From: Tomocerus qinae
Lineage: Eukaryota; Arthropoda; Collembola; Entomobryomorpha; Tomoceridae
Direction: 5' to 3'
Assembly: GCA_020055645.1 (NCBI GenBank)
Contig: CM034549.1
Coordinates: 22,775,930 to 22,839,929 of the forward strand
Length of the DNA stretch: 64,000 nucleotides
Shown: piece after piece, positions 3,001 to 44,531 of the stretch
Numbering within the stretch: position 1 is the first letter of the stretch
Layout: each line of letters starts with the position of its first letter
Notes under the pieces: model-generated
The model's input: the letters and a program-made list of their open reading frames with translations, nothing else
The model's database searches: none
What the model was told of the DNA's origin: nothing
Made by a program: the position numbers and the translations under genes

Positions 3001-6000
3001 CTTGCAAGTATAGCCGAATGACAATTACAATCTTAAACTCAATATCAGTATACCAAATTACCTCCTAGAATAAAAACATATTTAGTGAAAAAAATTCTTT
3101 CGCTAATATCAAAGGCAGCACTTACTTAATAACATGTTGACACATTCAACCATAATTTTCGGTGTGAGCATTTGGAGTTTATATAATTCTCCAATAAACC
3201 TAACATTTCCAAGAGATCGTCTCCTCATTCCATATTTCATTTCTTCCAAGTCAAGTTTTAACTGTTCCTTTTTATCCTCTGTAGCTGCAGCCAACTTTTC
3301 TTCGGCCTGTTTGATTTCATCTTCATCTGAAGTATTTTTCTGGAACTCTCGCTGACACTGATCTAAGATTTGCTTACGAAACTTTCTCGAAGTCTCAGGA
3401 GAATTTTTACATACAGTAAAAACCTAAAACAATTTAACTTTATAGCCAACATACTCATATCAATGATAAAATATATTCTTTTAAACATTAAAAGCAGTAC
3501 CATTTTTGCATATGTTGCAGAGAATGACGGTTCATCAATCGCTTTCTCAAACACAACCTTAATGACTTCCTGTATCCGGTGCTCAATATCATTTAAAGGA
3601 AGCTGCATAAATTTTCCTAGGAGTTTGTCAAAATTTTCTGGAGTAAGTTTATTGAGAATTCCTCTCGTTCGTTTCACGATATCCTAAAGACAAACGATTC
3701 AAAATATACATTACAATTGTTATGATTATTCTCAATTAATTACTAATAAGCTAAATATTTTACCTCCGTTATACTTTCTTCCTCAGATTTATCTTGATCA
3801 GAACCTCCTCCTCTTTGTTTAATTGCAGACGGTTTCCATGCGTGTTCTGCTTTATGCAGTTGGACTCGTTCAGTGTTTAACTCTATTATCTTTGGCGGAT
3901 GACCTCTTGGTGGTGCAGGAGGTACAAGCATTGGGCCCCATTGCTGCAAATGCAGAGGACTTGGGCCTCCTCTAATCCCACCAATTTGATTCATGATGGG
4001 TTTGGCGGGACCTCCTCGATTATTTCTCATATAATTATCTCTTACATTTCCAGGAGAGTTATTTTTAGACATCGGTTGGTTCTAGAAATTGAGTATATGA
4101 TTGAATTTCGATTGAAGAAGTAACAATAAATCAAGTGAATAACAACATTTTAGATAATAACATTAGATGCTCGCTTACATGGCCTTTAGCATTATTAGCA
4201 TCCTTTGCTACATCCGGAATTTCAATTGCAACTTTCATTCTACTCAGCGGCTGCTTCTCTAACTTCAGCAGGAACTCTCTTTCGTATTTGATTATGCCAC
4301 TCTTCTTACTTTTAAATTCAGTTTCAGATTCGTCGGCATCATCTGCCCCTGACTCATACGAAGGAGATTGTTCCTCATCAGGCCCAATTTCCCCTTCTTC
4401 CAATTTCGCATTTCCATTTTGCTGCTCTTCCACATGGACAGGTGCCTTGCTTTTCTCATTCTCCAGATCTTCTTCCAAATCCGGTGTTTTTTCAGGGACA
4501 AATGACTCCTCCTTAATTTCTTCTTCTGGGACAACTAGAGGATCTTCCACAGTGTCCGACACCGGACTGAGTGCTTCTTCTGACACCGGGGCAGATACTT
4601 CAGCTTGATTATTTGCAGGAGCGGCCAGAGGCGTTTCAACAATCTCGACCTCAACAGTAGGCTCCTCATCTTCAACATTTACAACACTATCTTCCAGTTC
4701 CTCCTGAGGCAACTCTATTGGTATGACAGAAGGAGGGCTTGTTTCTCTAGCTGATTTCGGGGTAACATAATTTTCTATAGGTGTGGGGGAAATAGATGCC
4801 AAACTGGTATCCTACACAATTTACATCCATATTTATAACATTATACACTTCACATATGCATACATTATATTTATATTAGCTACACAAAATAAAGTGCTAG
4901 TACTATTATGAACCTTAGATTCTTCCGGAGTTGGAGTCGGAGTGTTCTCTTCAGTAACCGGAACTGTGGAATTGAGTTTACTCGTATCTGACTGAGTATT
5001 CGATGTATCTGGAGCACTTTGGGAAGTCTGTTGAGTCTGACTTGCATTTTGATTCGAGCTACTGCTACTGACTCTTCCTGCAACGTAAACGTAAAAAATT
5101 TGAAAATCAACCTAAATTACAACACACTTTGAACAAGAAATATTGACGATATAATATAACTTGGGTGTCTACCTCTACTGGTGTGTTTCACCTTATTATT
5201 ATTCTTTCGCTTTTTTTTGTAATTACCCATAAGAATGTCCACTAAACTAAATTACTATGTGAAAGGCATGAAGGTAGTTTTATAAACAAGTAGTACTCAC
5301 AGTCACAATACAATCCAATCAAACGAAAACTCCAAATAAAACTCCGTTGCAAATTGCAAATACTAAACAAGGCTTGTTTAAAGACCTAAAAAGTAAAACG
5401 TAACTTCTGTTCTATTTTACTACGTTTGCCATGAATAGCCATCGTTCTTTATTTAGAAGTCTATGTAGAATAGGGGAAGGGTAGAGTCAAGAGTATTATT
5501 GGAAATTTATTTTTAGTTCAGCACTCTGATTGCGGGAGTGTTTGAGCAAGAACCCAAACCAAATATTTTGCATGATTTTGTCAAGTTACCCCCAACTTTA
5601 TTTCACAGCACGTATGACTATCAGAGTATATACCAAAAGATTGTGATCCTATAGTCTTGCGATTTGTTCTGTTTCCTACTCTCTGAGTCTGTCTAGTATG
5701 ACTCTTGTTCCACATTAATGATCCCTGCAGATAATCTCACTACTAGGTCTACTCTACATTCACAATTCACATGCTTTTATTTTTTGTGAAGGCCAGCAGA
5801 ATGCATGATGATAAACAAAATGAGCACGGCAATAGACGAAGAGAGGAGCTAAGGTAAAACCCTTTTTGCCAATAAACATAAACAAACGGATTATATAATC
5901 TGATAATAGAACAAGTATATCTTAAATGTACCTAACTTCAGTATAATTTATATTCATTTTAGATTAACCTTTTAACCTAACCCGATTTTCAATAATATGT

Positions 6001-15115: not shown

Positions 15116-16117
15116 ACAGGTATGGCTTATTGTGGGAAACCTCTATAGCTAAGCAACACAAAAAAACCACAATTTTAAACTACCAAGAGCCGAAGAAGAT
15201 TAATAACTTTAGCATAATATAGCAGTCTTAGCTATCAATAGCAATGTGGTTACCCGAATCGTGAGATTGATCAGTGTGATTCGAACGTGAGCAGGTACGT
15301 ACTTATCCAGAAATTTGGTCAAGAGGGGGGGGGGGGCGCAACCAAACATAATGTCATAAATGGGACATATGAGAGCGAAAAGTTTTTGCAATTTTTGACC
15401 TTTTTTGTTAGCTATCCGATTATCCCATTGTATACATTAACTCAGCAGTAGTACGGACTGATGTCATTAAAAGGCTGTAAGACTAGCCTGTAGTCTGTAG
15501 CTTCTAATGATTTGTTTTAAAAAATATTGCTAAATTGCAATCGGCCTGTGCGTGCCTAAATGAATCAGCGTTTAATGGTAGAATTGGTTCATGGTTCACG
15601 TAAAGTGTAAAGTCCACGTAGTCCAACAAAAATGCTTTTACGGCGGCTAGTCTCGGCAGTTTAGTACACGTGTACAATCTATAGATAAATACACAAATCA
15701 TGGCTTACGCTTACGGTTACGTGTTACGTTTACCTTCCAATTGGAATACAACTACAGCCTTTTACAAAAAATATCTAGTGTCATTTCTGTAGTGTTTATT
15801 CTAATAAGCAAAGTACTGTACTATGTGTCTAGTGTCTACTTTCCGGTTGGCAAAAGATTGAAGATTTATTATTGTACGCTGTTATTTGCTGTTTCCTTAT
15901 TTCGATTTCAAAAAACTTCATGTGACAGTCTTTTCATCGAATTTGTGTCTGACGGAAAGCCGAAAAATGTTATTTGAAATCGAGCGATTTTAGTGTGCTG
16001 TTCTATGGTTACTTTAACGTAGTCCGCTTGGAAATTCTACAGTTCGCTTTTATGTAGATGAGTTACATCATTCTAGTGAATTAAATCCCTGCGTTTGACC
16101 CACTACACAATACAGAT

Positions 16118-16898
16118 ATGTCAAATTTTGTTACAAATATATTTCGATCGGCTGGAGTCCGGTATCAGTCATTATTGGATAAGTGGACACCACATGTAAA
16201 GTCAAGATGGGCATTCGCAGTTGCTTTAATTATCCTCTTTGTTTTAAGAATTTTATATGCACAGGTACGTAAATTTGTCATAATATAATCTAAATTTTAA
16301 CTACTGAAAATTGAATAAGAAATCTATAACGATTGCAATTTGCAATGAATGATGAAGTGATATTTAACTAAGATACTTTTTGATTTTTCCAGGGCTGGTA
16401 CATAATCACGTACGCATTGGGCATCTACCACCTCAACCTTTTCATCGCTTTTTTGACCCCAAAAATTGATCCCGCGTTGGATTATGAAGGTAGGAAAACC
16501 TTAAATGAAAGTAAACAATTAATGGTATTTGGCGTAAAAACAAGCCGTCAATCCTACTGCCATTGCCTTTTTAGTCATGAAGTAATTTTATTTTTGCAGA
16601 CGATGGTCTTGACCTTCCAACACGGTCGAGTCAAGAATTCCGCCCATTCATTCGCCGCCTTCCTGAATTCAAGTTCTGGGTTGGTTTTGTGAAATCAACC
16701 CTAATCGGGTTAACGTGTACGATGTTCGATTGCTTCAATGTACCCGTCTTCTGGCCAATTCTTGTTATGTATTTCATCACTTTACTGTGTATAACAATGA
16801 AACGCCAAATCAAGCATATGATAAAATACAAATATATACCCTTTACGCATGGGAAACCCAAATATCAACCGACTGGTACCACTGTACCTCCTTCATAG
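16118..16898 (+). CDS. RER1: RER1, Golgi-to-ER retrieval membrane protein
   Basis: RER1 is a four-span membrane protein of the cis-Golgi. It recognises transmembrane segments of escaped ER proteins and unassembled complex subunits and returns them in COPI vesicles. Exons are 16118-16264, 16393-16489 and 16600-16898, joined in phases 0 and 1, giving 180 residues. Diagnostic stretches are [20 protein letters not shown], the [14 protein letters not shown] block, [13 protein letters not shown] and [19 protein letters not shown], nearly identical to animal RER1. The N-terminus ([13 protein letters not shown]) is shorter than in vertebrates and begins directly before the conserved [10 protein letters not shown] helix. 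Introns are 128 and 110 nt. AATAAA at 16,980-16,985 fits a short 3' UTR. Confidence 0.97.
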
Positions 16899-22837: not shown

Positions 22838-25800
22838 ATGCGACTACTCAAAAACGCTATTTTAATATTTTTATTACAATTATACGTAGTTTATGTGCTA
22901 GCCGACGAAAAGACTGATAACAAATCAAATGGAGATGCAACTGACAAAGGTAAACAACCATTTCATTATATTATGTCAATACTATTTCAATTCATTCTCT
23001 CCTGCTACAAGTCCAAACACTCTGTTTACAATTTCTCCCATGTGATCATACTAATAATGTGTGATTGACACTAAAATTCAGTAATGTGAATCAGGTAGCT
23101 AAACATAATACATTTGGCCTATGCTAATCTTTTCTTATAGCAAGGACATAATAAATTATTGGATCAATTACAAGAAATATTAACCTCACAAATTACTTAT
23201 GCTCATTAAAGGATGTAGGTGGTACTATCTAACTGAATATAAGAAATGGTCATAATTATACATAAAATGTACTCTCAAAGTCAAAAGGAGGAAATTCTCA
23301 GGCGACTTAACCCTAGTGACTTTGAACGGATGCAATGAGATAAATACTAGCTACAACAACAATACTTACGATCATGACATTTGGGATTATAATCCGCATT
23401 AACGAATGCACAGGAATTCTGTTAACCTTGTATTGTACTATTGATCGCACACAATGTGCACAACTTATGCATTCAACTTTTAGCTTCATATCTGCACTAC
23501 TACAGACTTATTACATCTAGCTAAATTAAAGCGTATAAATATTTATTCAATATAGTTACAACATTCGTGAATGTTTCGCTTGCATCAAAATCCTTTTACT
23601 TCGCAATTGACATGCTGTATGATTTCAAACTGTTATAATGTATTTGCATCACAGTTTTACAATTCTGTGTTAAACATTTAGTAATTCTTGCAAATATCAA
23701 ATCACATCTTTCAAAGAAAAGGTATGAGTCATAATATTTCCTTCCGTCACAACATTATCAATATCTATCAATATTTTCTACATTGCAGAAAATCTGCTCT
23801 TATCTTAACCTCAACAGGTGCAGAGTTACAATAAATAAACCCAATCTAAATCTACATTATAATTAAGGTAGAAAAATAATAAAAATGAAACGTAAATGTG
23901 AAAGTCATCTTAAGTATCAAAAATTGAACATCAATTTTTATTTGATAGGATTTGCTTTTTTGCTTACTTAGGAGCATAATATTTTTGCAACATGAAATTC
24001 CAGGAGTAGTTGACCGCAGGTTTAATGAATGTACGTGTAATGTATAATTTTAATACTATAGTCTGTCCAGAAAGTAAAACCGGTTGGTTAGATGTGTTCA
24101 TAATATAAAATCTGAAGATAGATATTATATAGAAGTTGGGAAGAGTTTGGTATGAGGAGGGTAATGTGTATATGCATAACAGGGCATCAGGAGAGTGAAT
24201 CGAGTAATTGCCGGTGTGTTCTCTTAAGCAATGGAGAGGTTGTTCCTATTGTAGTTACCAGTCACCTTATGTAGTTTTCGTACGTGTATAGTTGATTGTT
24301 AAACAGGTATGAGGTTTGACTGGCCATGAACTTGCGTTTTTACGTATGTGGATCTTATATTTTATTCTGGTAGATTAGCATTACTGAAGAGAATTGCACT
24401 ATTGTAGGTACACGACTCTAAATTAGCTGTGGATAATGTACAGGCATATCTAATGCTAAATAAATGTGTAAGTAGCCAGACTGGGCTACAAATCTGCTTA
24501 AAGCATTTACGATGTTGTAATACTTACAGCATACAAAATGATAAAATCATTTCAAAATACATAATTATGGGGCTATTGTCTGAAAATACTGTAACTGAAA
24601 ATCTAGTGGCTAAATACGTTATGAAAAATAGAGGCATAGTTATTTATTTACATAGAAAACGTCAATCATGCAGTGTAAATCTATTTTACTGTTACATCTC
24701 TATGATTAATTTATAAAAGGATAGAGGAGATGTAAGCAGCTGCTGAAATAATGAACGTTATTCCACGAGACTGTCATTAGACACCTTTCATTAGGAGAGA
24801 TACAACGAACGGGATTTATTATTAGAAGAGAAGTATGAATGTGTGATGATGGGCATACGTAAATTATTAATGAATTTTGCGGTGCTTTGTTGCACACCTG
24901 CAGTTTCTAAAGCCTTCGTTGGAGATGGTACATTACTTACCCAGTGCGGAAATGTCTGTTAAAGAAAGGATTAGGAACGCTGTGCTTAAAATACACCACA
25001 ATCAGTTCAATCATCTTAAGTGACTTAGTAAGTGCATGCGGACACCACAAAAAATGATCTCCAGACTCGAGAAAATGCTGACTCAATTTGATACCGTTAT
25101 AGTAATGAGCAAATCATTTTCCATTGACAGTCTGCACACAATATAACAAGTACATTCTTTAGCACCATTTTTACGCTTCATGATCATCTGCGGTCTTCAA
25201 ATCGTCCCAAATGCCTTTTTTTATTTATAGGCTAAAGCTTTTGTTAGTTTATGCATTTATATACCTACTTAATCCTTAGGGAATACTTCAAATGCTTGTG
25301 TTTTTCCGTTCTCTCACGATGTCACGATCATTGTGTGAGCATTAATTATTTTGTTAGAGGATTAATAGTTTTCTACAAGCAATGTAATATCAACACGAGC
25401 GTAAGGAATACGAATTTAATTTTGATGCTTTTTTAAACAGAATTGGTGGTAATTACTGTCGCGACAAAATGGACGGAATCTCTTACTCGATATTTGAGAT
25501 CTGCAAAAATTAATGGACTACAAGCAGAGGTACTTGGACTAGGAGACACATGGACAGGGGGAGATGTCCGAACCAGCGAAGGTGGTGGACAGAAAGTTGT
25601 TATTGTTAAGCAGTACCTAGAGAAGAACAAGGATGAACTTGTCGGGAAAGACAAAATTGTCATGTTTACTGACAGGTACCCCTAATTTAACTGTCTACTT
25701 TGTAACTGAACAATGTTAAGCTTTGAGGAACAACTGTCATAGCATTAATTTGCTTCAGATACCATTTCTGCATTTTGTGACATGGAGTGTGACAAATTAT

Positions 25801-28800
25801 TATGAATCTGTTTTACAGCTACGATGTTTTACTCCTTGGCTCGGCTGAAAAAATCCTGAAGCAGTTCCAAATGACCAACGCTCGAATTGTATTCGGCGCT
25901 GAAAGCTTTTGCTGGCCAGATGAATCTTTGGCATCTCAGTATCCTGAAGTACTCCGCGGAAAGAAATATCTCAATTCAGGAGGTACATAAAATTCATTTG
26001 AATTTAATGGAAATTATTGTGTTTGAATATGCTTTAATGAATAATGATTTTCTTAGGCTACATCGGATATGCTAGTGACTTGTATAAATTACTACGTCAT
26101 GAGGAGATTACAAATTCCTCCGATGATCAACTTTACTTCACCAAATTATTCCTGAATGAAGATATCCGAACTGAATTAAAGATAAAACTTGATACAAAAT
26201 CGACAATCTTTCATAATCTTAATGGCGCTACTGGAGAGACAGAAATGTAAGGATTTTACACATCACATCTCTCGATTTCTGTTAGTTTCTATTAATAGAT
26301 TGAGTACAAGCACAGCAGATACTGATAAAGTTGATGAAATTGACTAACACTTTCAATACTAAGAGTATTGAGATGATTTAGGGTAAAATGATGATTTGGT
26401 AGTACAATTAGATGCAGCTGCATAAAAATAAATGGGAAAAGTGAAATGTCTCGATTGTAAAAGGACCATTATCAATTATACTAAGGCTATTTACTATGTA
26501 AGATGCTATATGCTATCTGTTCTATGGAGGATGAAAGCGAAGACATCATTTGTGAACATGAAAACCAAGGGAATGAGAAACTTGCCCTTTTAAAGAAATA
26601 CGATTCAGCAAAAGGAGCATCAAAGCGTGACGCTTGACTTAACGGTTTCTCAACAATGTAGCCGTTTTTGCAAGGAACCTACATTTTCCACACTATTAAA
26701 TCTTGGCCAATCTTGGTGACATTTTCACATAGAACTTCACAGTAAAAATACTTTCTACTAGATACTTCAGCAATTTGTAAGCTTCTGATTTTATGTAGCA
26801 CATTTAGGCTACTAACAATTGCTGTGTACAAGTATCTGTAAAATTCAAAATGTCATGCATTATCATGTGCAAATTTGTTGCAGGATTATTTTTACGCAGT
26901 GACTCTATTTTTGCATTTGCTCCTCAGTATGGCATATTTTCTAGTGTATATCTAGGTTATAAGTGCTATTAAATGCAGTTATGTTTTAACTCTACTCATT
27001 ACCATGTTTATTGAGTTGAACTTGTGGTTTATTTAATATTTTCAGGCGATTTGTCGACGGTAAGGCTAGTTTAATCAATACTGTGTACAACACGCACCCT
27101 CTGGTACTTCATGGAAATGGTCCTACTAAATCTGTCCTCAATTCTTATGGAAATTATCTGCCGGAAAATTGGGCACAAGAAAAAGGCTGCAATGATTGTT
27201 GGGAAAATATGATCAGTCTTGCTGATACGAAGGTAAATTGTCCTTAATGAAGAAAGGTTTACCTGAAAGTTTATGAGAGAAAATTTTAATTTCTACAAAT
27301 ATTTATATGTAGGACGCTGATTTGCCTAATGTTTTGGTGGGACTCTTTATCGAAAAACCGATTCCTTTCTTGGAAGAATTTTTCCACAAAATAGAAGCAC
27401 TTGATTATCCCAAATCCAAGATAAATCTTTTCATCCACAATGCGGTAAGTTGTTTTTATTATCCAACCAAATCATCTATCATTGAAAAGCAATAAAATTA
27501 TTTCCCTTCTCCCAGGCACCTTACCACGAAAAATTGGTGGAAGGCTTTGTGGCCAATTTCAGTTCTAAGTACGCTAGTGCAAAAACAATCGTGCCTTCCG
27601 ACAACACCAAAGAGTGGCATGCAAGGAACTTGGCTGTGTAAGTAGTAGAATTTCATTTTACATGGAAATAAATATCAATAAATGTGTAATTTAATTTCTA
27701 TTTTTAAACAGGGAACAAGCAGTGAAGAAAAATTGCGATTTTTTCTTGAGCGTTGACGGTGAAGCTCATTTGGACAATCCATTTACACTGAAGCTGTTGA
27801 TAGAACAAAATCGTGGGATTGTGGCTCCATTACTCGTCCGACCTTACAAAGCTTGGTCAAATTTCTGGGGAGCACTCAGCTCTGAAGGGTTTTATGCCAG
27901 ATCTAACGACTACATGGATGTTGTGAAAAGTGAACGAAGGTCAGTGATTATTTCAATTCCTAAAATGGATGCTATGAATATTTATGTGAAATGAGAAAAT
28001 GAAATTCCAAAAGAAAAGTGCTTTATTAACGAGTCTCCACAAGTAGTGAGGATGTAATTATTGCATTAGTCATTGGTGAAGACATTATTTCACTGGACAT
28101 AATAAATACTACTGTTAGTACTGTTAGGTAATACTAAATTCACACACACACATTGAAGACGAAATTTATAGCTGTCAAAAATTTGGGAAGAATTTATCGT
28201 AACGTCCGATCTTTATTGCAGAGTCTATCTTTCGTTTCAAGATCCTTTAATTAGATATGTATAAGTAAGTAGATCAGTAAGATCAACACGTTAATGTCTG
28301 TCTATCCGTTATATTATACTCCGTATCGGTATTATATTGACTCATTGTCAGATGATATGGCATTCATGTCTCTTCAAGTTAGGTTTTTAGCAATTAAGGT
28401 CACTACTCTTGAAATACTATAAAATATCTTTAATTCAAAATTACACACACCAAGGAATGATCTACATTTGAAATGAATTCTCTTTAATATGAAAAAGTAT
28501 TGGGATAATTTTACTAATATAATAACATTTTCTTTAACACACATTTTAGCACAAGTAATATATTTGACGTACCTAATTGTACTTATGTTAAGGTTTTTTT
28601 GGAAACGACTACATTGAAATATATTATTACAGATATCAGAAGTATTAGTAGTACCTAAGTAATATGTAAGCTTCCCAGTCATTGGCAAATGATTATTTTA
28701 TGTATTCTCAAGCTCTAGATTGCAAATGGATATAAACTGGACATTTCTTTCTTTAGTATATTTTCTCTTTAACCTTATACAATACTCGTTAAGTGCGATT

Positions 28801-31800
28801 TAATTTTCTATCGTTTCCTACAAGTGTAATTGGATTTTAAGGTACTACACAAGTTATGCCTATTAGTTTTCAAAGCTGCGGTTATTGGTAAACGCCAAGT
28901 AGTAATGTTAATTGCAATAGAAATCAAAAAATGGGAAATCAATAAGAAACCGAGAATTAGTGACGCTTTTCGCTTATAATTAAGAAATGAAACTGTGACA
29001 TTGGATTTCACAGCATGATGTTTATTTTGGTAGGAAATTCTTGGTAGAAATCAAATAAATCAATATATTGGCTTTGCTTATATACCATATATCCCTATAG
29101 ATGGTTTCTCTATTCAGGTAGAGATATTTGTAAATGTACCTGTACAGATATAAGTCAATTTCCAGCTTTGTTCTAAGTTGCACGTCAGGAAACGAACGTG
29201 CGTAAGTAGTCCCGGAAGACTACGTAGTTAAATGAGAGATAAAATTTCTTTCGTGACGAAAGATTGTTTGTAAACATCTTACAGATTAGTCGAAGACGGT
29301 GACAAAATCTGTCCTGAATGTACGTTTGTCAATGGCAAACTTATTGTCAGCGTAGCAATCATAAATGCCAGCATCCATTTGTGTCGCTGGGTCGATTTCC
29401 ATTTTCGATTTGATTTTCTCGTCGTATATCCACTCGTGGATCTAGTAAATTAGAATTTATGACATGCAATAAACTTCAAGAGTAATGATATATTATTATT
29501 ATACTTTCTCTATATATACCTGTAAGAAATTGTGAGCGTAGAGTTCAATGCCATCTTTAAACCATGTAATATGCGGTCGAGGTTTACCTTGTGCTTCGCA
29601 CAAAAAGTTTATTTTGTGTCCAAGCACATATTCCAAGTCAAAATGAGATGCTTTCGTTATTTTAGCTCCCTGGAAAAAGTGAAAATTATTATTATTTACT
29701 ATTTTGGAGAGACAGTAGTAGTAATTAAGAAATTATGGATGCAAACCTCTGGATTATTGTAGTACTGAGAAGTTTCTGAATCCCTCCATTTACCTCCAAT
29801 GGGAACTCTGGACATTCCTCCTTTTTGTCCTCTTCCCCTTCCTCTACCCTGTAGTGTGTTAAATATGATATACCATACCTCAGAATAATGATTAGTAATT
29901 TTTGAAAACTCACCCTTTTACAAAATATTTCCTGTGTTAAAACTAAAAATATTAAAATTGTTAATAGCACTTGAAGTTGCTTCATTTTCACTAGTGACCG
30001 CAGTGAGTTACACTCTCAACTCAAGGCTGCCGACACTGCATCGGCTCGATCGATAAGTAAAAGTAATTCAGCCATCCCGGCGGGATAGTTTACCCACTGG
30101 ATACGTAGTAAGATGCCCGAATGAATGAAAAAACTACCTTACTACGTATACATTGCACTAAAATCAACTGCCGTAGGTTATACAACTCTTCCCAAGCATG
30201 TAGCTAGCTCTACCTACCTACTCTATCTACTTGGAGAAAGTTCTCGGCTATCTCCACACGCTTGCATGAAATTAGATTAAATCCCATTAGCAATGCCCTA
30301 ATTATTCCTTTAAAAGACACAAATCGAATACAATTAGACCATTCGGCGAATTCAATAGTCGTAGATTCACAAATGTCCATTTGTAAATTAGATTCTTCAG
30401 ATTGCTTTTTATGGAATTACCTAATAAAATGAACCTCCCATTACAAAATGTCTTTTTCTTTACAGAGGATTGTGGAATGTCCCTTTCATCAGTGGGGCTT
30501 ACTTAGTCAATGGAACAGTCCTTCGCAATGAAGCTACTCGACCAAATTATATCAACAACCTTTTGGATGCTGATATGGCCTTCTGTCTTAATAACAGGGA
30601 TAGAGATCTTTTCATGTTTGTTACAAACAGAGTTGACTGGGGACATTTGGTAGGCTCATTTTTATGCATAAACACTAAAGTATTCACCGGAGAAAGTTGC
30701 TTTCTCCATAAACTATTAAAATATTTAATTTTAATTTTACTTTCAATAGGTAAATGCGGATAATTTCGAAACAACACATAAAAATAATGAAATCTACCAA
30801 ATTTTCGACAATCGATGGGATTGGGAACTCCGATACCTCCATCCAAACTGGTCTCATATTCTCAGCCCTAACATTACTCTTGATGAAATGATGAAGGATC
30901 CTAATCAAATGGTAAAAGATAAAGTAATTTTTAGTTTTCTGCTAAAAGATTTTCAGAGCGATAATAATTTTGAATTGTTATGCCGCAGCCTTGCCCAGAT
31001 GTATTTTGGTTCCCGATGGTCACTCCTAGGTACTGTTCAGAATTCATTGCTGAAATGGAAAACTTTGGTCGCTGGTCAGACGGGTCCAATTATGTAAGTT
31101 CCTAATGGAGAAAGTAAACATTTTGAATTCTCTAGGCCATAATGAGAAGATTAACAGATACAAACTTATGTACACATATAATTCAATCTAGTTCCACTCG
31201 TGTACTTATTACGAATGACAAAACATGATCTTTCGAATTAGGCTTATCTTCTAAACATACTTATCTGTATGTATAAATATTATTAAACATAAATATAAAG
31301 TAATGGACTGTAACAAATGGACGGAATTTCTAGGCACAGATTGACTTGACTGTGACCATTGTGTACTAATTTTGTTAATTTCCATCAATAATTAAAATGA
31401 ATTTAATTTCCTCTACAAAAGGATCCTAGACTCGATGGTGGTTACGAAAACGTACCAACAGTTGATATTCATATGAATCAAGTTGGTTACGACGCCCAGT
31501 GGTTGGAATTCTTAAGGCTCTACGTGGAACCTTTGCAGAGCAAAGTTTATACGGGATATTATCATTATGTATGAAATAACTTATTCTTATCAAGTCCAGC
31601 GGATAATAAATAGCTTGCAGGGTGGTAAATGAGATCAGTAACAAATATAAAACCGAAAGATTACCTAGGAAGAATCTTAATGTTCAAACCTGAATTCCAA
31701 AACGATCAAAATATCTGCATATGTTGAATTGTAGAATTTATTGGGAAACATCTTTCGTATTTGTGTGGAATTAAGTTTGTATTTGTAAATTTGCTTCGGT

Positions 31801-32948
31801 ATATAATATCAATATGTAATTAGGATCCGAATCGAAAAGAGACAGGATACGACGACCACCCTACAGTAGATCAACATTTATTCCAAATTGGTTTACAAGA
31901 TGCATGGATTGTTTTCTTGAGGAATTATGTTGCCCCGCTCGCCTTCAAAGTTTACGAAGGTTATGAAGAGGTCTGTGGAATTCCTATAAATCCTTTTTCG
32001 AAACATTTCCAGTATTTTGATGTAGTATCAATAAGTAGTTAAATTGCGTATTGTAAAAATTACAATTCTAAGCATTCAATATTATTATAGTCGAAAGTAA
32101 ATTAATTATTAGACGCTAGAAAAGTAAATGTTGTCGAATGGTTTCTAATGGACCTAGGAAAATAGTTTGAAATTGTATTTTGTAGAATTGTATTTATTCT
32201 TGCATATTGGCGTAAATTTGAAGTATTTGATTTCTAAGTAAGTTGGCCTGTATATATGCTAATTCCTTATGCGTTTAATCGTAGGTACCTAGTTTTCACT
32301 TCCCTATTTTGCTTTAGAGTGCGTAGTTGATTTCCATTGATCAATTCTGAGCAAGAACTGTAATGTACTATTGTACTGTGCGGGTAAATATTTTCTGTGT
32401 ACTCTATAAGATCTCAATCTCATTTACTATTCATTATTATTTACTTTATCATTACCACCCTGAGCTTTTTGTAGCTGGACTTGACTTTTATTTATCTCTT
32501 GGTGTGTGTGCAAGTACAGCCTGTGTGGGCATGTACAAGTGCACAATTAAATGAGAGCCAATCTAAAATTGCACAATTTATTTCCAGCCTCCGTATGCAT
32601 CAATGAATTTCGCTGTTCGCTACAAGCCGGATGAACAAAAGGAGCTGAAACCCCATCATGATACCTCAACCTACACAATAAACATAGCTTTAAATACACC
32701 TCATAAGGATTATGAGGTGGGTTCAACAAAAGATAGTTTACTATTGTCATTGATTAGGGTTAGATGACTCAATAATGTGTGTTTATTTGCAGGGAGGAGG
32801 ATGCAGGTTCACAAGGTATAATTGCTCAGTCACTGAAACGAAACTTGGGTGGATGATCATGCATCCTGGGAAACTGACACATCAACATGAAGGTCTTCGT
32901 GTGACAAAAGGAACGAGATACATAATGATCTCATTCATCGATCCATAA
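22838..32948 (+). CDS. Plod: Procollagen-lysine,2-oxoglutarate 5-dioxygenase (lysyl hydroxylase, PLOD)
   Basis: In the ER lumen PLOD hydroxylates collagen lysines (Fe2+, 2-oxoglutarate, ascorbate); LH3-type enzymes also glycosylate the product. Exons: 22838-22949, 25441-25675, 25819-25982, 26057-26246, 27046-27232, 27313-27444, 27516-27637, 27712-27939, 30466-30649, 30750-30911, 30989-31093, then 31422-31568 or 31824-31970, 32588-32716, 32793-32948. With one alternative exon the phases give 750 residues (human LH3: 738). The signal peptide is about residues 1-22, cut after VYVLA. The N-terminal glycosyltransferase domain shows [14 protein letters not shown] and [10 protein letters not shown]. 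Iron ligands by alignment are H679, D681 ([11 protein letters not shown]) and H731 (LTHQHEG), with R741 for 2-oxoglutarate. It ends in SFIDP like animal LH proteins. An antisense gene lies in intron 8. Whether it acts as LH3 cannot be told here. Confidence 0.97.
22950..25440 (+). other. PLOD intron 1 (2.5 kb)
   Basis: This separates the signal-peptide exon from the glycosyltransferase domain. It contains no supported gene. A short frame near 24,955-25,020 reads [18 protein letters not shown] and resembles the C-terminal part of mariner-like transposases, so part of the intron may be a decayed DNA transposon. That reading is weak. Confidence 0.7.
29286..29985 (-). CDS. oig-4: Secreted single immunoglobulin-domain protein, OIG-4 type
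   Basis: Members of this family are small secreted proteins with one I-set Ig domain; C. elegans OIG-4 is an extracellular component at the neuromuscular junction. Exons are 29985-29914, 29848-29747, 29669-29520 and 29441-29286, all phase 0, giving 159 residues. A hydrophobic signal peptide ([16 protein letters not shown], cut near FCKR) is followed by a basic Gly/Arg linker ([11 protein letters not shown]). The conserved block YYNN...[17 protein letters not shown] comes next, then the Ig fold: first Cys in [13 protein letters not shown], Trp in ITWFKDG, and [11 protein letters not shown] with the second Cys. The donor after 29747 is GTTTGC, a weak site. The gene lies antisense within PLOD intron 8. 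TTTATT at 29,021-29,026 may be its polyadenylation signal. The family is clear; its role in this animal is inferred. Confidence 0.92.
30074..30149. promoter_or_regulatory. Palindromes upstream of the OIG-4-like gene
   Basis: ATCCCG-g-CGGGAT at 30,074-30,086 and a hairpin with perfect 12-bp arms (ATACGTAGTAAG at 30,101-30,112, CTTACTACGTAT at 30,138-30,149) lie 90-165 nt upstream of the start codon. They also lie inside the PLOD intron. A promoter role is inferred from position only. Confidence 0.35.
31422..31568 (+). other. PLOD alternative exon A (canonical-like)
   Basis: This 147-nt, phase 0/0 exon encodes 49 residues beginning [19 protein letters not shown] and ending KVYTGYYHY. The acceptor is ctacaaaag and the donor is TAT|GTATGA. 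It matches the segment before the catalytic HxD in other PLOD proteins, for example [17 protein letters not shown] in human LH3. Confidence 0.93.
31824..31970 (+). other. PLOD alternative exon B (duplicate of exon A)
   Basis: This second 147-nt, phase 0/0 exon lies 255 nt after exon A. It encodes 49 residues starting [18 protein letters not shown] and ending FKVYEGYEE. It aligns with exon A throughout: shared PTVDxHxxQxG, W..FLR.YV.PL and KVY.GY, and both start GATCC. The donor GAG|GTCTGT is weaker. Only one of the two exons can fill the structural position, so mutually exclusive use is inferred; including both would keep frame but duplicate the segment. Confidence 0.85.
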
Positions 32949-35900
32949 ACTACCTTTTTATACTTTTCTTTATACTTTGATATTTGTTCTTTTTTTATTT
33001 CCAAAGATTTTTGAGTGTACTTTTGAATTTGTTATTTGTTTATACCTATACTAATACTCTGACTTAGTGTATTCTTGTGTACCTACTCAGCCCGTGTACA
33101 CTAAACTTCTCCTACACTAAACAAAATACAATCTACACGATAATAGAAATGTTTCGGGGACTCAAATGTTATAGCTTCATAGTCTGCATTGCAATAAATA
33201 AATTGTATTTCGGTCGTGGTGAAATAAAACAAGTATATTCCAACTTTTAAAAATGTTTTTCATTCCATCATGCAAAAACATCTAAAATCATTATTAATTT
33301 TCATAAAAACAATTCTTGAACAATAATCACAACAGGTATCAATCCATATCGAGTAGAAACTTGAAAAGGCAAAGTGAACTTTTTAAAAGTTAATAATAAT
33401 AAGTACATACTTTGACAGCTGAACGTCAATTATTAACCAATTATTTCAATTTCAACAAAACCGAGATTAAAACCTGAAGGAAGCAGTAGATTATTCCATA
33501 GTTATTTCACATTTCCACCAATACAATAACCTGCACTAAAAAGGTCTACATTAAAGCAATTGAATTTTCTGGACTTCTTTCATGCCCAAAACTGTCCCTT
33601 ATGTCTGGCTTTTTTTTATACGGTACTATATAAAACGTTACCATTTTAATTCATAACAAAAGTTTACTACTGTTTAAAAGTATGAATTGTCAAGTAGCAC
33701 AAAAATAAGTCAAAATTTTACTTCCATAGCTGATACTTACTCCATTTCATGAATTCCGGTAATATCCATAATATCAATCTAACGAGAGAAAATGTTTTTC
33801 TTTATTTCGCCACAAATATAGCAAGTAATAAAATGACATTAGGAGAACACTACAAACGTCCATGTAGCTTAATTTGCATTACATTACAGTAGATATAAAT
33901 GTAGCAGACAATCCCATCTTCTCTTATACAAACCCAAACCTTATCATACACAAGACATGCTTTAGCAATTAAACATTTTGGTATATGATTTTAATATACA
34001 TGCAATCCAACATTAAACGTACATGTATTAAAAGGCTCCTCACATCTTTGCTAATGAAATGTTATATTCGGTTGATAATCATAATTATAAGTCTTTTGAA
34101 TACAAAGATATCTACTCGAGTGATAAGATATGTTAAAAAGAAAACCATTTACATACACAGGTACATTTCTCATAGTTCTGGCTCAAAACAATTATATATT
34201 TGCAAATACAAAAAAATGTCTATTATAATTTCAAGATCATTAGCAGCTAAGAGGGAATTTTTTAATTTTCCTGAAAAACTTATCCTGAGGTAATGAAGGA
34301 GTATTTTCTAATAGGCTTGCATTGTAACTTGATATACATGTGCACATTTGTGTGAATGAGAAATACTAGGCCACTGCATATGAATAGAATCAGATAATGA
34401 GATAAGGTAGTATTCTCACGGTTCAGGTACTTCATTTACAGATGTACACAATCAAGTATCTTTAGACTTGTAGGTAGTAAATGGCTATTAAATACAATTA
34501 CTGCAGCATGTAATTATTCTTTTGACTCATTCGGCTATAATTATGCTTAACATGAATATGACATAGGCATGCAACTAGAATGAATGGCTACAGGTACTTT
34601 GTTTACTGATATATGAGTATGAATTAAAACTAATTATTTATACGCACTTACTGTACATACATTAATCTTTAATTAATTAAAATATACATGTACCTATTAA
34701 TTAGTAAATTATGATTTTTAATTATTTTCAGAAAAAATATAACTGGTCTTACATTCAGATAACATTTTCATTTGACTATTAATTTTTAAGCGTGGAGTGG
34801 ACTACGAAGGACAATAGCAGAGTAAATTGGACTGTTTACAGCAACAACATACTCTACAAGTGATACAAAATTAAATAATATTTTATATTTTGCTACCCAA
34901 TAATACATTTCATGGCTATTTAAATATAACTAATATATAATATTGTAGGTTTTCAAAGAGTATAGCATAGAGCATTAAGAAAAATCAATGAAAAAAATTT
35001 CTAATACAAATCAATTTCAATTGTGTTAAAGTATCTAAATGGATGTTTCAATAGGATATGCTATAACAATTTATTATATAGATTTAAGAAAATATACCAT
35101 GAAGGTACTACTAAGATTGGACTTATGTACATAAACGTACAATTACATATAGCAGTTATATACATTTTTCACATAATTATTACTTAAATATGTGGTTTTG
35201 CAGCTTTTCAGAAGAAGAAAACAAGTGAAAGTTCATAATAGCAAGACAAATCACTGAATGCTTGATAATAATTTGCAAAAATGTGCTATTATTGCATAAT
35301 ATTGAATAAAAATGTACAAATAAAAATCTGCATGCAAATTGACACAAACTTTTTGCATAAAATTTAGTATTTTTGTACCCTATGGTATGCTAAATAACTT
35401 TCTCCTGTTCTCAATCCACCCCCGTTTTATTCGCACATGCAAAATAAACTATGCAAATTTTAGCAAAAGTATACAAACTATTTTTTAAATAAGTCATCTA
35501 ACACTCAATTTTACTTCCCACACATTAAAATACAGATTTTGATGAAATTATGCTGAAAACGAATTAAATATCAGTATTTAAATTAGAGAAAGTTATTTAA
35601 AAATTAGTGAAAGCTTTTATAGGAAATTTATTTTGTAACAAGTAAGAAACTCAATAAAAATACAAAGTGTTGGTAAATAGTGTATAACCATTTTCTGTTT
35701 TATTTCACATGAAAAACTGTTATAAATTTATAAAAACAGGGAAAGATAATACTAAAATCTGATAATACAATTTACATTACAAAATAGTACTGAAAAAGCA
35801 TTGAGAGAGAAGCAAAACTTGCTGTAAAAATTATTTGTTAGATTTCTATAAGTATTTCTCTGTGAAGGGCTACTAAATGAAGGGTTTGTAAGTACCTAGG

Positions 35901-39853: not shown

Positions 39854-40040
39854 AATTAAATAATTAAACGAACTACTGAAGTTCGATATTAATTCTATGA
39901 GGGCGACTCATGGGAAGGGGTTATAGTTATATACAATGTAGTACGCCTATTTTCTGCGTCAAAACCACAATTTTTAAAGTAGCCGGTTAAAAAAGAAGCT
40001 TTCTTAATCCTCCAATTCAACCGCTACTCAGTCTTCATTT
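39854..40040. repeat. DIRS right inverted terminal repeat (3' end of element)
   Basis: About 150 bp (39,891-40,040) are the reverse complement of 44,532-44,680 except for a few differences near the tip (GAGGG versus TTCGGG, and GGGAAGG versus GGTCGG). A further 37-40 bp at the outer end are absent from the left ITR, like the extension on the right ITR of DIRS1. Confidence 0.88.
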
Positions 40041-40118: not shown

Positions 40119-40235
40119 TAACCCCTTCCCATGAGTCGCCCTCATAGAATTAATATCGAACTTCAGTAGTTCGTTTAATTATTTAATTCTATTTCGGGCG
40201 ACTCATGGTCGGGGTTATAGTTATATACAATGTAG
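40119..40235. repeat. DIRS internal complementary region (ICR)
   Basis: Positions 40,119-40,188 are a perfect 70-bp inverse of the outer right end (39,854-39,923). Positions 40,185-40,235 are a perfect 51-bp inverse of the outer left end (44,630-44,680). The two parts share a single AATT. The ICR thus spells out the predicted junction of the two ends in the circular intermediate. Confidence 0.9.
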
Positions 40236-40312: not shown

Positions 40313-41272
40313 CTATGAGCTACCAAATACGGATTTTCCAAATTCTTCTCTTGAGTCCATTGGTCGATGATAGAATTTTGCAAAAACATTAGATTTATCT
40401 GACCAGCCGGCAGTGGATCTAATATAGTTTATATCGATGCCATTCTTACTTGCCAATGATGTCGATGCATGACGTGTACTGTAAGCGCTGAATCTAGTGA
40501 CATCAATTCCGGCAAGTTGTAATGATTTTTTGATCCAACGAGATATAGTCTGGGTACAAACCGAGTGATATGGTTTTTGAAAACTGATGAGCACGGTTTG
40601 TTCAGCACCTCTGAGCGATTTTGTTCTCTCTAGATATTGTTCCAGGAGCGAAGCCACACAAATTTCAGGGTTGGTGGTAAATCTCGGGAGATACAAACAT
40701 GGCTGATCTCTCCCTGGTGCAGAGGTTTTAACTTTATCAGGGATGAATATTTCAACACAGTTTTCAGATATTTTTACGTTACATATTTTCATAAGTGAAA
40801 ATGTCTGAATTCTATGAGCCGTTGATAAGGCTAGTAGACAGATGAGCTTATAGGTTAGATTTTCCAATGAGAGACTCGAAACTGGGTACCAAGACTTAAA
40901 GAACTCGATAACTTGTTGCGGATCCCACAACACAGAATAGCGGGCCTTCGGAGGGTTACTGTTGGCAAAAGCCTTCATTAAGCGTTTAACCCTGTAGTCT
41001 TCACCAAAAGTCTCGTTATTTTGTACAGGTAAAATTAAAGACAACGCAGAACGCGTTGTATTCAATTTGGAGTAACTAGCAGTCTTGGAACGAATGTTCA
41101 AGTATTCTAGTACAGAACTAATGTCCGGATCAAAAACGGCGTTTGGATCGCCATTATTGTAATTCCACCAGTCTATTAATGACGTAGAGTATTGCTTGAT
41201 TGATGAGGCGGACAATGATTGGATCATTGTATCAGCTGTTGACGGTAGAATTTCTTTTCTTAATAGAGCCAT
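40313..41272 (-). CDS. DIRS tyrosine recombinase
   Basis: This enzyme would integrate the circular cDNA by site-specific recombination in place of a DDE integrase. The 319-residue frame is intact. An N-terminal helical DNA-binding part (SIKQYSTSLIDWWNY) precedes the catalytic domain. Likely active-site residues are R154 (LSTAHRIQTF), R267 (AYSTRHAS), W290 (AGWSDKSN) and the nucleophile Y301 (FAKFYHRP). The first position of the HxxR box is Tyr264 rather than the usual His, which may weaken catalysis. The start overlaps the end of the RT frame, as is common in DIRS elements. Family identity is secure; activity is uncertain. Confidence 0.88.
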   Translation of the reverse strand: MALLRKEILPSTADTMIQSLSASSIKQYSTSLIDWWNYNNGDPNAVFDPDISSVLEYLNIRSKTASYSKLNTTRSALSLILPVQNNETFGEDYRVKRLMKAFANSNPPKARYSVLWDPQQVIEFFKSWYPVSSLSLENLTYKLICLLALSTAHRIQTFSLMKICNVKISENCVEIFIPDKVKTSAPGRDQPCLYLPRFTTNPEICVASLLEQYLERTKSLRGAEQTVLISFQKPYHSVCTQTISRWIKKSLQLAGIDVTRFSAYSTRHASTSLASKNGIDINYIRSTAGWSDKSNVFAKFYHRPMDSREEFGKSVFGSS

Positions 41273-43106
41273 CCTGATAGTTTCGCTACCACCAGGGAAA
41301 GTTGACTTGACAGTGGGTGATGGTCTCTGAAAGGAGAAATTAGCAAATTATCCTTGGGTCCCAGTATAATAGATTCACCATCTATAACTTTCTGGAATAA
41401 TGGATACCAGGCCTGACTAGGCCAATTTGGTACAACGACAATGCCAGATACTCTTTCAGAAACAATTTTTCTGATTACCCTTGCCACCATATTAAAAGGT
41501 GGAAATGCATAAAATTTGATGCCGTCCCAGGGCACCGTGAATGCATCGACATGCACGGCATTTGGATTAGGTTTCCAAGAAACAAATTTTTTGCACTTAG
41601 AGTTACTGTGGGTTGCAAACAGGTCTATATCTGCTGTCCCAAAATACTCGCAAATTATATTGTAGTATTCTGGGGCCAATTCCCACTCTGAATGAACCTC
41701 TTTAATTCGCGACTGGTAGTCCGCGTCATAATTTTGCTTCGAAGGAATGTAAGAGGCCCTAACCCATATCGCTCTGAATTCGCAAAATCGCCATATACGT
41801 TTAGTCACTTCATGCAAATTTGGGAATTGTACACCACCCATTTTATTGATATACGACACGGCAGTCGTGTTATCAATACGTAATAAGACTCTGATGTTGT
41901 TGTGACTAGCCATGAAACTCTGCAACGCATACAATGCAGCTAACAATTCCAAAGTATTGATATGGTATATGGACTCTATCTTATTCCACCATCCATTTGC
42001 AGTGATGCCATTACAAATGGCCCCCCAACCAGTAAGGGATGCATCACTATTAATAATGACATCGTAAATATCTGTACGAATAGGGCTGGAACAATTTGGT
42101 AATTGTTGTTGCCACCACCGAAGATCAAATTTGCTAGTTTCAGATATTTCCAACTTTGAATCATAGCTGTTGAATTTTTTCAGCGCTAAAAATTTATCTC
42201 TCTCCAAGGACTTAGTATACAATAAACAATAAGGTACTGCATATCTAATAGAGATGAGCAATCCTGTTAAATGTGCAAGTTCACGAATTGCTGATGTTTT
42301 TCTCTTTAGACAAGAGATAATTGAGTTTTGTATTTTATTTCTTTTCTCCTCGGTAATACTTAGGGCCATTCTATTAGAATTAAGAATATAGCCTAAGTAA
42401 GTAATTATATTGCATGGTATTAAACATGATTTTTCAAAGTTAATTACAAAACCGAGGTAATCTAATAATTTGCAAGTGAGAGATACATTTGCGGAACATT
42501 CAGTCTGCAATTTTTCGATGAGTATAAGGTCGTCGAGGTAGTCGACAGATGTGTGACCAAGATTTCGTAAATATTTCATTACTGGCTTCATCATTTTTGT
42601 AAAAATGAAAGGAGCTATATTTAATCCGAATGGGAGACAAGTAAATTCGTAACAAGAGCCTTGCCAGCAAAACCGTAAATATTTACGAAATTTTGAGTGG
42701 ATAGGTATCAAAAAATACGCATCTTTTAAGTCAATAGTGGCCATAAAGGCATCTTGGCTTAATAAGTGCATTACCGAACGAATGTCAGTTAGTTTGAAGT
42801 GAGGAGCAGATATAAACTTGTTCAATTTCTTTAAGTTGAGAACAAATCTGTAGCCTGTATGATGACAAGAACTCCTCGTTTTCATGAACACAGGCATTAA
42901 TTGCACCTTTCTCAATCAAACTGGAAATTGCCTTTTTCATTTCAATGGCATCCAGTTCAGATAATTGAGGATCAGGTGGAACAGTAAACTGTTTTGGCTG
43001 AGTATCAAAGGGTATTTTATATCCTGAGATACAACTTAAAACAAACGAGTCGTTTGTTATGGATTTCCACTGGGGTAAATAGAATTGAAGGCGGCCAGCT
43101 AGCTTT
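41260..43106 (-). pseudogene. DIRS reverse transcriptase / RNase H / methyltransferase-like ORF with a frame break
   Basis: The main frame is 42,915-41,260. It shows FVLNLKKLN, DLKDAYF, the RT active site YLDD (frame residues 126-129), then RNase H with D291 (INSDAS), E323 (TLELLAAL) and D348 (RIDNTTAV). A C-terminal domain with FPPF (471-474) and VPNWPSQAWYP matches the methyltransferase-like region of DIRS polyproteins. The first part of the protein, including LAGRLQFYLPQW and KKAISSLIEKGAI, is in another frame from about 43,106 and must change frame near 42,857. There the usual block between FLSS and YRFVLNLKKLN is missing, so a small out-of-frame deletion is inferred. The 3' end overlaps the recombinase frame by 13 nt. 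Confidence 0.85.
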
Positions 43107-43110
43107 ACCT

Positions 43111-44274
43111 TTAGTGTTTCGGATGGTATCTCTTCTGTTGCCCGCCCTTTCGGGGATGCGACGTCTTCCGGTATGACGGGCGCTTGAAGTTTAAAGAACT
43201 GGATTCAGACTTTGACTTCTTGGGCGCCGGGACAGTTGACGTTTTGGGCTTCGATTGAATTTCAACTGAAGCTTTTTCCATGTCCTTTGCCGCTTTGATG
43301 CGGGAAGGAAAGTCCTGTCCAAAAAGAAACTCGTCAGTTAAAGCGGACTCCGCTAACTTCCGTATGTTGGGTTTTAACTGGGGAAGGATTGATGCCTTCC
43401 GCTTTGCTGTCAGGCAATGGTGTAACCCAGCAAAGATTCGGCCAGCATCAGATATTGGTGCTATAGCCTCTGCTTCCGGTATTAACTTGGAAGTTAATAA
43501 TCGAGTTAAGCCAGTACCCAAAGCTTATAAACCGGCCAGAGTTTGGCTTTGGAAATCCTGTAACTGCTCGTCCTTTTTCTTCCCGTCTGCCAGGAGTACA
43601 AACTCCAGCTCAGGGTTTAATTTTGGGACAGCCAATTCTTTTAAATTCGATGGCGTGGCGAATTTCTTAAAAAATTCAACCTTCTCGTCTTTTAGGATGC
43701 CCTTATGAAGAATAGGTCCCCACCTGGCAGCTAATTCTTCATTTATTGGACGATCCGTATCATTCAATTTTTCTGGAAGCTTTCCTAGGTATTCCAAGAT
43801 AGAAGGATCCATAGGGACGGAAGTCTCGAGGATCTCTTCGTTGTTGTCATTGGGCCCATCGACATTTTTATTGCTTATCGACGATAAGCCTGTCATTTGG
43901 CTGTTCTCTGAATCCGGAGAAGAAGAGCGACTGGGACATTTTGTTCGTGTCTCGAAGAGATTCGAACAATGTTTCCCCGTCTCGATGAGATGGGGATTTG
44001 GTTTGTCAATCCTTTTTTCCAATTTTTCCAGTCTCTTGAGAACTTGCTTACAAAGGGCCATTGACGATGAGGAAGATACCTTGCTTGAGGATCTAGAGGA
44101 GAATCTCGAGTACGAATCATCTCCATAATGTCTCCATCTTTGCCCGTAGCTAGGAGACCTAGACCGACGTCGTTTTTCTCCATGCTGGGATCGTGAATTA
44201 TCCCTGCTAGAGTGACGGTGACGTTCCCGTCTCTCTGGAGAATTTGATTTGTTCCTTTTCCGATGAAAACTCAT
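43111..44274 (-). pseudogene. DIRS gag-like ORF with an internal stop codon
   Basis: The frame runs from the ATG at 44,274 (MSFHRKRNKSNSPERR) to the TAA at 43,113-43,111, but is split by an in-frame TAA at 43,527-43,525. The first part is Arg/Ser-rich with RSRSPS repeats and carries a short leucine/lysine helix (VLKRLEKLEKRIDK). The second ends in a basic tail (KGGQQKRYHPKH). This arrangement suits a nucleic-acid-binding structural protein. The frame is the same on both sides of the stop, so one base change explains it. Deliberate readthrough cannot be excluded but is less likely. Confidence 0.8.
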
Positions 44275-44531
44275 AGCTCTAGAAAAAACAAGTGAAGATA
44301 ACAAGAATCGATTAAAATAACATTTGCAATAAATATCAATTAATAATGATAATTGTTAGAGATTATAAATAAATGTTATATATCCTGTTTTTACTGTTGT
44401 GAATCTCAAATCAACCTTCTTTACAATATTTGGAAGGTAATCACAAAATAAAAACAACACGGATTTTTCAAAAAATGAATAATTCTGGAAGAATTTTTTA
44501 GTCAAGTGTATGGTTGACGCACAAAAAAGAC

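Follow-up and report, generated by a model that had tools for sequence, protein, structure and literature searches.

A tandem exon pair at the predicted capping loop of a lysyl hydroxylase gene in Tomocerus qinae

Two naturally occurring versions of the gate on a single protein scaffold would allow a direct test of whether living animals regulate the self-inhibitory gate of LH3-type lysyl hydroxylases. A 64,000-nucleotide stretch of the genome of the collembolan Tomocerus qinae (contig CM034549.1, positions 22,775,930 to 22,839,929, forward strand; hereafter the window) raises this question through a lysyl hydroxylase (PLOD) gene in which one exon, corresponding to most of the gate, is present in two versions. 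The original prediction for this locus proposed a duplicated, probably mutually exclusive exon next to the catalytic core. We favor, with a probability of about 0.7, an ancient duplication of one exon in tandem, within the sole PLOD gene that was detected when the assembly (334,443,149 bases in 115 contigs, 334 Mb) was searched. Alternative use of the two copies, most likely one at a time, would exchange most of the capping loop together with the segment that contacts the loop of the partner subunit. The animal can probably make two enzyme forms from this gene. If so, a single detected PLOD gene could yield functionally different lysyl hydroxylases, a task for which humans use three genes.

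Two versions of one exon in a PLOD gene

The coding gene is complete, with 14 exon positions spanning 22838-32948 of the forward strand, and was assembled manually from 13 constant exons plus one of two alternatives. Exons 1 to 11 are in frame with AG/GT borders throughout. The twelfth position is occupied by a tandem pair of homologous 147-nucleotide exons in phase 0/0, termed 12A and 12B, either of which splices in frame to give a complete protein of 750 residues. The A-form protein matches human LH3 across query residues 12-750 (E 5.9e-228) and carries a GT_PLOD domain (profile match, E 8.9e-100), while the 2OG-FeII_Oxy domain is detected with exon 12A and with exon 12B alike. Glycosyltransferase, accessory and 2-oxoglutarate-Fe(II) oxygenase domains stand in LH3 order together with the HxD iron motif, as in the PLOD family; these domains and motifs identify the gene as PLOD and predict collagen lysine hydroxylation.

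The exon pair was described in the original prediction as adjacent, 147 nucleotides each, in phase 0/0 and starting with GATCC. This is borne out, with AG and GT flanks, as are the motifs PTVD, WxxFLR and KVYxGY common to both versions and the placement of the segment ahead of HxD, a motif that exon 13 encodes some 25 residues farther on. The further description as aligned 49-residue versions holds with respect to homology (alignment score 123, against a shuffled maximum of 48, n=5,000), but positions are offset by one-residue insertions and deletions. Relative to 12A, 12B gains one residue in the loop and loses one near its end, where it reads EGYEE instead of TGYYHY. The two share 25 identities in 48 aligned residue columns and differ in the other 23, and an ungapped comparison yields merely 3 identities. 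By tblastn they find each other with E 1.5e-11 when the window is searched and with 2.2e-8 when the search covers the assembly.

No convincing third copy of exon 12 was found within the window (next best tblastn E 0.06), and a search of the assembly in which only the best candidates were scored gave two matches, 12A and 12B. Likewise, the assembly yielded no second PLOD C-terminus: with E values up to 1 allowed, the only matches were exons 13 and 14 of this gene. The anatomy, the homology, the mapping to LH3 described below and the absence of another detected copy in the assembly are established at the level of genomic sequence.

Version 12A is the closer to human LH3, with 31 identities against 20 for 12B. 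The homologous segment of the Mimivirus L230 lysyl hydroxylase domain (6ax6) is about equally similar to both (19 identities to 12A and 18 to 12B), and over the whole domain the B form scores 147.9 bits and the A form 145.4 bits against the viral protein. L230 differs from the Tomocerus gene in having a single version, with Gln where LH3 has H613. Exon 12B retains 12 of the 16 columns common to 12A, LH3 and L230 (P = 0.03). By these comparisons, 12B has departed from the animal consensus but stays within the family.

Exon 12 and the LH3 gate

Reports on LH3 describe residues 590-610 as a capping loop, which a second iron, bound by H595, D597, D611 and H613, locks over the active site with R599 positioned in front of 2-oxoglutarate (PMC6082870, PMC9453210). 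Mutants D597A and D611A show uncoupled activity raised 3-5-fold and coupled activity raised about 1.5-fold (PMC9453210). The loop is followed by a helix, residues 618-639, and in the LH3 dimer residues 640-646 of one monomer touch the loop of the other; in simulations with the second iron the loop gains contacts to residues 643-648 of the other monomer. Residues F639 and Y642 help line a pocket for L715 of the partner (PMC6082870). The capping loop and second iron are described from crystals, and were probed by simulations and two point mutants.

In the numbering of the LH3 papers, the V610-D611-I612-H613 stretch aligns onto exon 12, which therefore corresponds to LH3 D597 to approximately T644. 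On this alignment exon 12 would encode most of the self-inhibitory gate, including three of the four lock ligands (D597, D611 and H613) and the plug residue R599, as well as the helix 618-639 and the dimer-pocket positions F639 and Y642. Both versions retain D597, R599, D611, H613 and Y642 and have Tyr at 639, and every mapped functional position kept by 12A is also kept by 12B. The fourth ligand, H595, is replaced by Asn at the end of constant exon 11 (window 31088-31090, within WSDGSNY), and the four-ligand lock is therefore incomplete in both isoforms. Human LH3, which resembles the Tomocerus protein over its whole length, is taken here as one fixed sequence, whereas the Tomocerus gene has two versions.

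The changes specific to 12B are distributed across the segment. One Asn is inserted ahead of R599 (if the start of 12B is read without a gap, Asn falls at 599 instead). Substitutions affect 6 of 14 aligned columns in 597-610, including V607 to His; in 618-639 they number 10 of 22, and in 640-644 they number 3 of 5. The original prediction spoke of lysyl hydroxylases with different substrate or assembly properties; that proposal becomes concrete in that the exon corresponds to most of the capping loop and a dimer-contact segment, although the difference in properties is something we only infer. We propose tentatively, at somewhat less than even odds, that the gate is altered in the B form, with an additional residue beside R599 and a different surface facing the partner subunit, and that its behavior changes as a result. 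Such a difference might be expressed in iron self-inhibition, in uncoupled 2-oxoglutarate turnover or in the choice of collagen sites.

A more elaborate possibility, which we consider doubtful, is a splice-switched gate. Exon choice would then swap most of the iron-locked loop together with the partner-contact surface, so that gating would differ among A/A, B/B and A/B dimers, and the His at 607 of 12B might take the place of the missing ligand H595, making B the iron-sensed form.

Exon choice, the intronic stem and competing explanations

Exons 12A and 12B have the anatomy of an exclusive pair, being adjacent, homologous, of similar length and alike in phase and splice borders; equal-length homologous neighbors are described as preconditions for mutually exclusive exons (PMC3923563). 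From this anatomy and the intronic stem presented here, mutual exclusion appears likely, and it is quite probable that each mRNA takes one exon, 12A or 12B. A duplicated, probably alternative exon, as first proposed, is supported, while its exclusivity is suggested by anatomy and stem and is not enforced by the reading frame.

The splice sites of 12A are weak. Its donor is predicted to pair with U1 at -0.5 kcal/mol, whereas the 12 constant donors range from -4.8 to -9.5; just one constant donor out of 12, and likewise one constant acceptor out of 12, scores below the corresponding 12A site. The 12B donor pairs at -5.0, and the 12B acceptor outscores six of the 12 constant acceptors.

A long stem is predicted between the intron separating 12A from 12B and the intron after 12B, with 43 pairs, two perfect 11-pair blocks and a duplex energy of -49 kcal/mol. 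Its windowed score of -38.5 was reached by none of 60 shuffled intron pairs. When the region is folded in full, the arms hold 36.9 expected pairs, and the stem is present in both the minimum free energy and the centroid structures of 31569-32500, a region that folds better than all 20 shuffles. By the crude measure of whole-intron duplex energy, the two introns around 12B also stand out (0 of 100 shuffles). The stem would loop out 12B and place the 12A donor near exon 13, as in the loop-out models proposed for insect exclusive exons (PMC6071210). We suggest, at a little under even odds, that it keeps 12B hidden while drawing the weak 12A donor close to exon 13, and that opening of the stem or a splicing factor would lead to use of 12B.

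Other pairings in the region were also considered. One weak candidate, 78% complementary and equaled by 1 of 60 shuffles, would loop out 12A and crosses the main stem. The region of the 3' arm can pair with exon 12A at -28.5 (reached by 1 of 200 and 0 of 200 shuffles in two comparisons, as one of five regions tried), which we treat as a lead only. Partners for the 3' arm in the first intron, in exon 12B or in the 5' part of the last intron were no better than shuffles. An origin of the arms from repeats was rejected, given that each arm-bearing stretch matched itself alone in the assembly in a search that skipped very common words. No Rfam family exceeded its gathering score in 30989-32950.

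Selection on 12B was assessed by comparing codons and by simulation. The two exons differ at 19, 14 and 31 first, second and third positions, respectively, of 48 codons, corresponding by the NG86 method to dN 0.51 and a saturated dS of 2.97. In the neutral test a simulated copy drifted from 12A without insertions or deletions, and runs were counted as resembling 12B if their frame stayed open and 25 or more identities remained. With the third-position distance as observed and half of the divergence assigned to 12B, this occurred in none of 20,000 runs; the fraction was 0.0004 with a B share of 0.35 and 0.013 with a share of 0.25. When the distance was lowered by 1.5 standard errors, the fractions were 0.001, 0.03 and 0.12 for shares of half, 0.35 and 0.25. 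Neutral drift of 12B is therefore unlikely, to a degree that depends on how the divergence is split, and the earlier suggestion that both copies are under selection is supported with the same dependence on assumptions.

Several observations weigh against an exclusive, gate-swapping pair. The stem is strong but not unique: among 149 overlapping placements with this geometry across the window, one scores as well; among 40 other stretches, one holds equally many expected pairs; and when gaps are allowed in helix scoring, the value of 53.5 falls short of the maximum of 12 shuffles (58.0). Moreover, the main stem explains loss of 12B only, and the pair that would remove 12A is not exceptional, being equaled in strength by 27 of 149 placements and holding approximately zero expected pairs in the full fold. 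Inclusion of both exons and skipping of both also stay in frame, and exclusive use is a prediction from genomic sequence. The neutral test weakens under other divergence splits (up to 0.12), its simulation lacks insertions and deletions, and dS is saturated. Finally, with Asn in place of H595, locking by iron may be weak whichever exon is used.

It is improbable that 12B is a copy in decay or in rare use, spliced as noise in what is essentially a one-enzyme (12A) gene. The long stem would hide such a copy, and a B share of one quarter at the low-end divergence lets 0.12 of neutral runs resemble it; yet 12B has an open frame, intact borders and better splice sites than 12A, it retains the functional positions, and the equal-share simulations produced nothing like it in 20,000 runs. 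Even less can be said for 12B as a cassette joined with 12A in some mRNAs to give 799 residues and two loop-helix segments in tandem, which we regard as very improbable. Joint inclusion would keep the frame, and the 255-nucleotide intron between the exons should be long enough for splicing, but a second loop and helix just before the oxygenase core should spoil the fold, the main stem would part the 12A donor from the 12B acceptor, and equal-length homologous neighbors suit the preconditions for exclusive exons (PMC3923563).

A more serious alternative, though still on the unlikely side, accepts that the exons are exclusive and both used but holds that the swap hardly affects gating; its role would be to adjust expression or stability, or it would have no selectable effect in the gate itself. 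Versions 12A and 12B agree at the mapped functional positions, and D597A and D611A alter the coupled activity of LH3 only about 1.5-fold (PMC9453210). However, 23 of 48 aligned residues differ, and the changes include 6 of 14 columns plus an insertion in 597-610 and 3 of 5 columns in 640-644, the parts of LH3 that move and that meet across its dimer. We retain alternative use of the two exons with a swap of most of the capping loop as the preferred explanation.

Related systems and other features of the window

Two-exon exclusive clusters are a known kind of arrangement, accounting for 102 of 126 clusters in Drosophila melanogaster (PMC6071210). The Tomocerus pair resembles such insect clusters in its adjacent homologous exons, equal length, shared phase and strong loop-out stem, and differs in that exclusive use is deduced and just one of the two expected pairings is exceptional. 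Drosophila Plod (CG6199) is likewise described as the sole lysyl hydroxylase gene of its genome, but its two annotated transcripts differ in the 5' untranslated region only (PMC3044864). In the open-access literature, the titles and abstract openings among the matches listed described no exclusive exon at a PLOD gate, and the main text of a 2026 lysyl hydroxylase article (PMC13382579) gave no hit for the terms 'insect', 'arthropod' or 'Drosophila'. Subscription papers and database isoform records lie outside this negative, so that both forms may already appear in automatic annotations of related species.

Alternative splicing also alters a lysyl hydroxylase in vertebrate PLOD2, where it concerns one optional extra exon at another position and offers no choice of gate. 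Relatives were sought in viral contigs, where three scans gave one locus each, and in genome contigs, which included no other arthropod genome and gave none. Two of these loci, L004 (frame at 3-818) and L005 (2698-3264), encode distant lysyl hydroxylase-like oxygenases of phage type, and L001 is a partial match only. A QDLHL stretch in L005 resembles the D611-x-H613 position, as judged by eye.

Table 1. Exons of the T. qinae PLOD gene and predicted intronic pairings, in window coordinates
Feature	Position	Strand	Remark
Coding exon 1	22838-22949	+	hand-joined
Coding exon 2	25441-25675	+	hand-joined
Coding exon 3	25819-25982	+	hand-joined
Coding exon 4	26057-26246	+	hand-joined
Coding exon 5	27046-27232	+	hand-joined
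Coding exon 6	27313-27444	+	hand-joined
Coding exon 7	27516-27637	+	hand-joined
Coding exon 8	27712-27939	+	hand-joined
Coding exon 9	30466-30649	+	hand-joined
Coding exon 10	30750-30911	+	hand-joined
Coding exon 11	30989-31093	+	hand-joined
Exon 12A, consensus version of capping-loop segment (LH3 597-644)	31422-31568	+	
Exon 12B, divergent version of capping-loop segment (LH3 597-644)	31824-31970	+	
Exon 13	32588-32716	+	HxD iron motif (PHHD)
Exon 14, final coding exon with stop	32793-32948	+	
Intronic stem, 5' arm	31590-31647	+	21 nt past 12A donor
Intronic stem, 3' arm	32435-32484	+	103 nt ahead of exon 13
Weak candidate pair	31145-31176 with 31764-31795	+	would loop out 12A; crosses main stem

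Several other genes are present in the window. Intron 8 of PLOD (27940-30465) contains, on the opposite strand at 29286-30015, a single-Ig-domain gene with a signal-peptide-like start, the two joined pieces of which match I-set (E 1.2e-14). Upstream of PLOD lies a Rer1 family gene (16085-16895, forward strand), whose hand-joined pieces match PF03248 (E 7e-75). Gene pieces with a MIF4G domain, which we take to be eIF4G-like, occur on the reverse strand at 2103-2441 and 3366-3683. A retroelement at 40316-44355 (reverse strand), presumably DIRS-like, combines a tyrosine-recombinase frame (Phage_integrase, E 3.2e-10) with a reverse transcriptase frame (RVT_1, E 1.5e-20) and is adjoined by a perfect 70-nucleotide inverted repeat (39854-39923 and 40119-40188).

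The assembly also contains eight matches to COX1, located on contig C1 (36670928-36672268 and near 139.1-139.8 Mb) and on contigs C81 and C11. One of these, of full length, has an open frame when read with the invertebrate mitochondrial code and sits inside a contig of 140 Mb; either mitochondrial DNA was recently inserted into the nuclear genome or the assembly is misjoined there. COX1 alone was identified by profile; the frames beside it are presumably ND2- and COX2-like.

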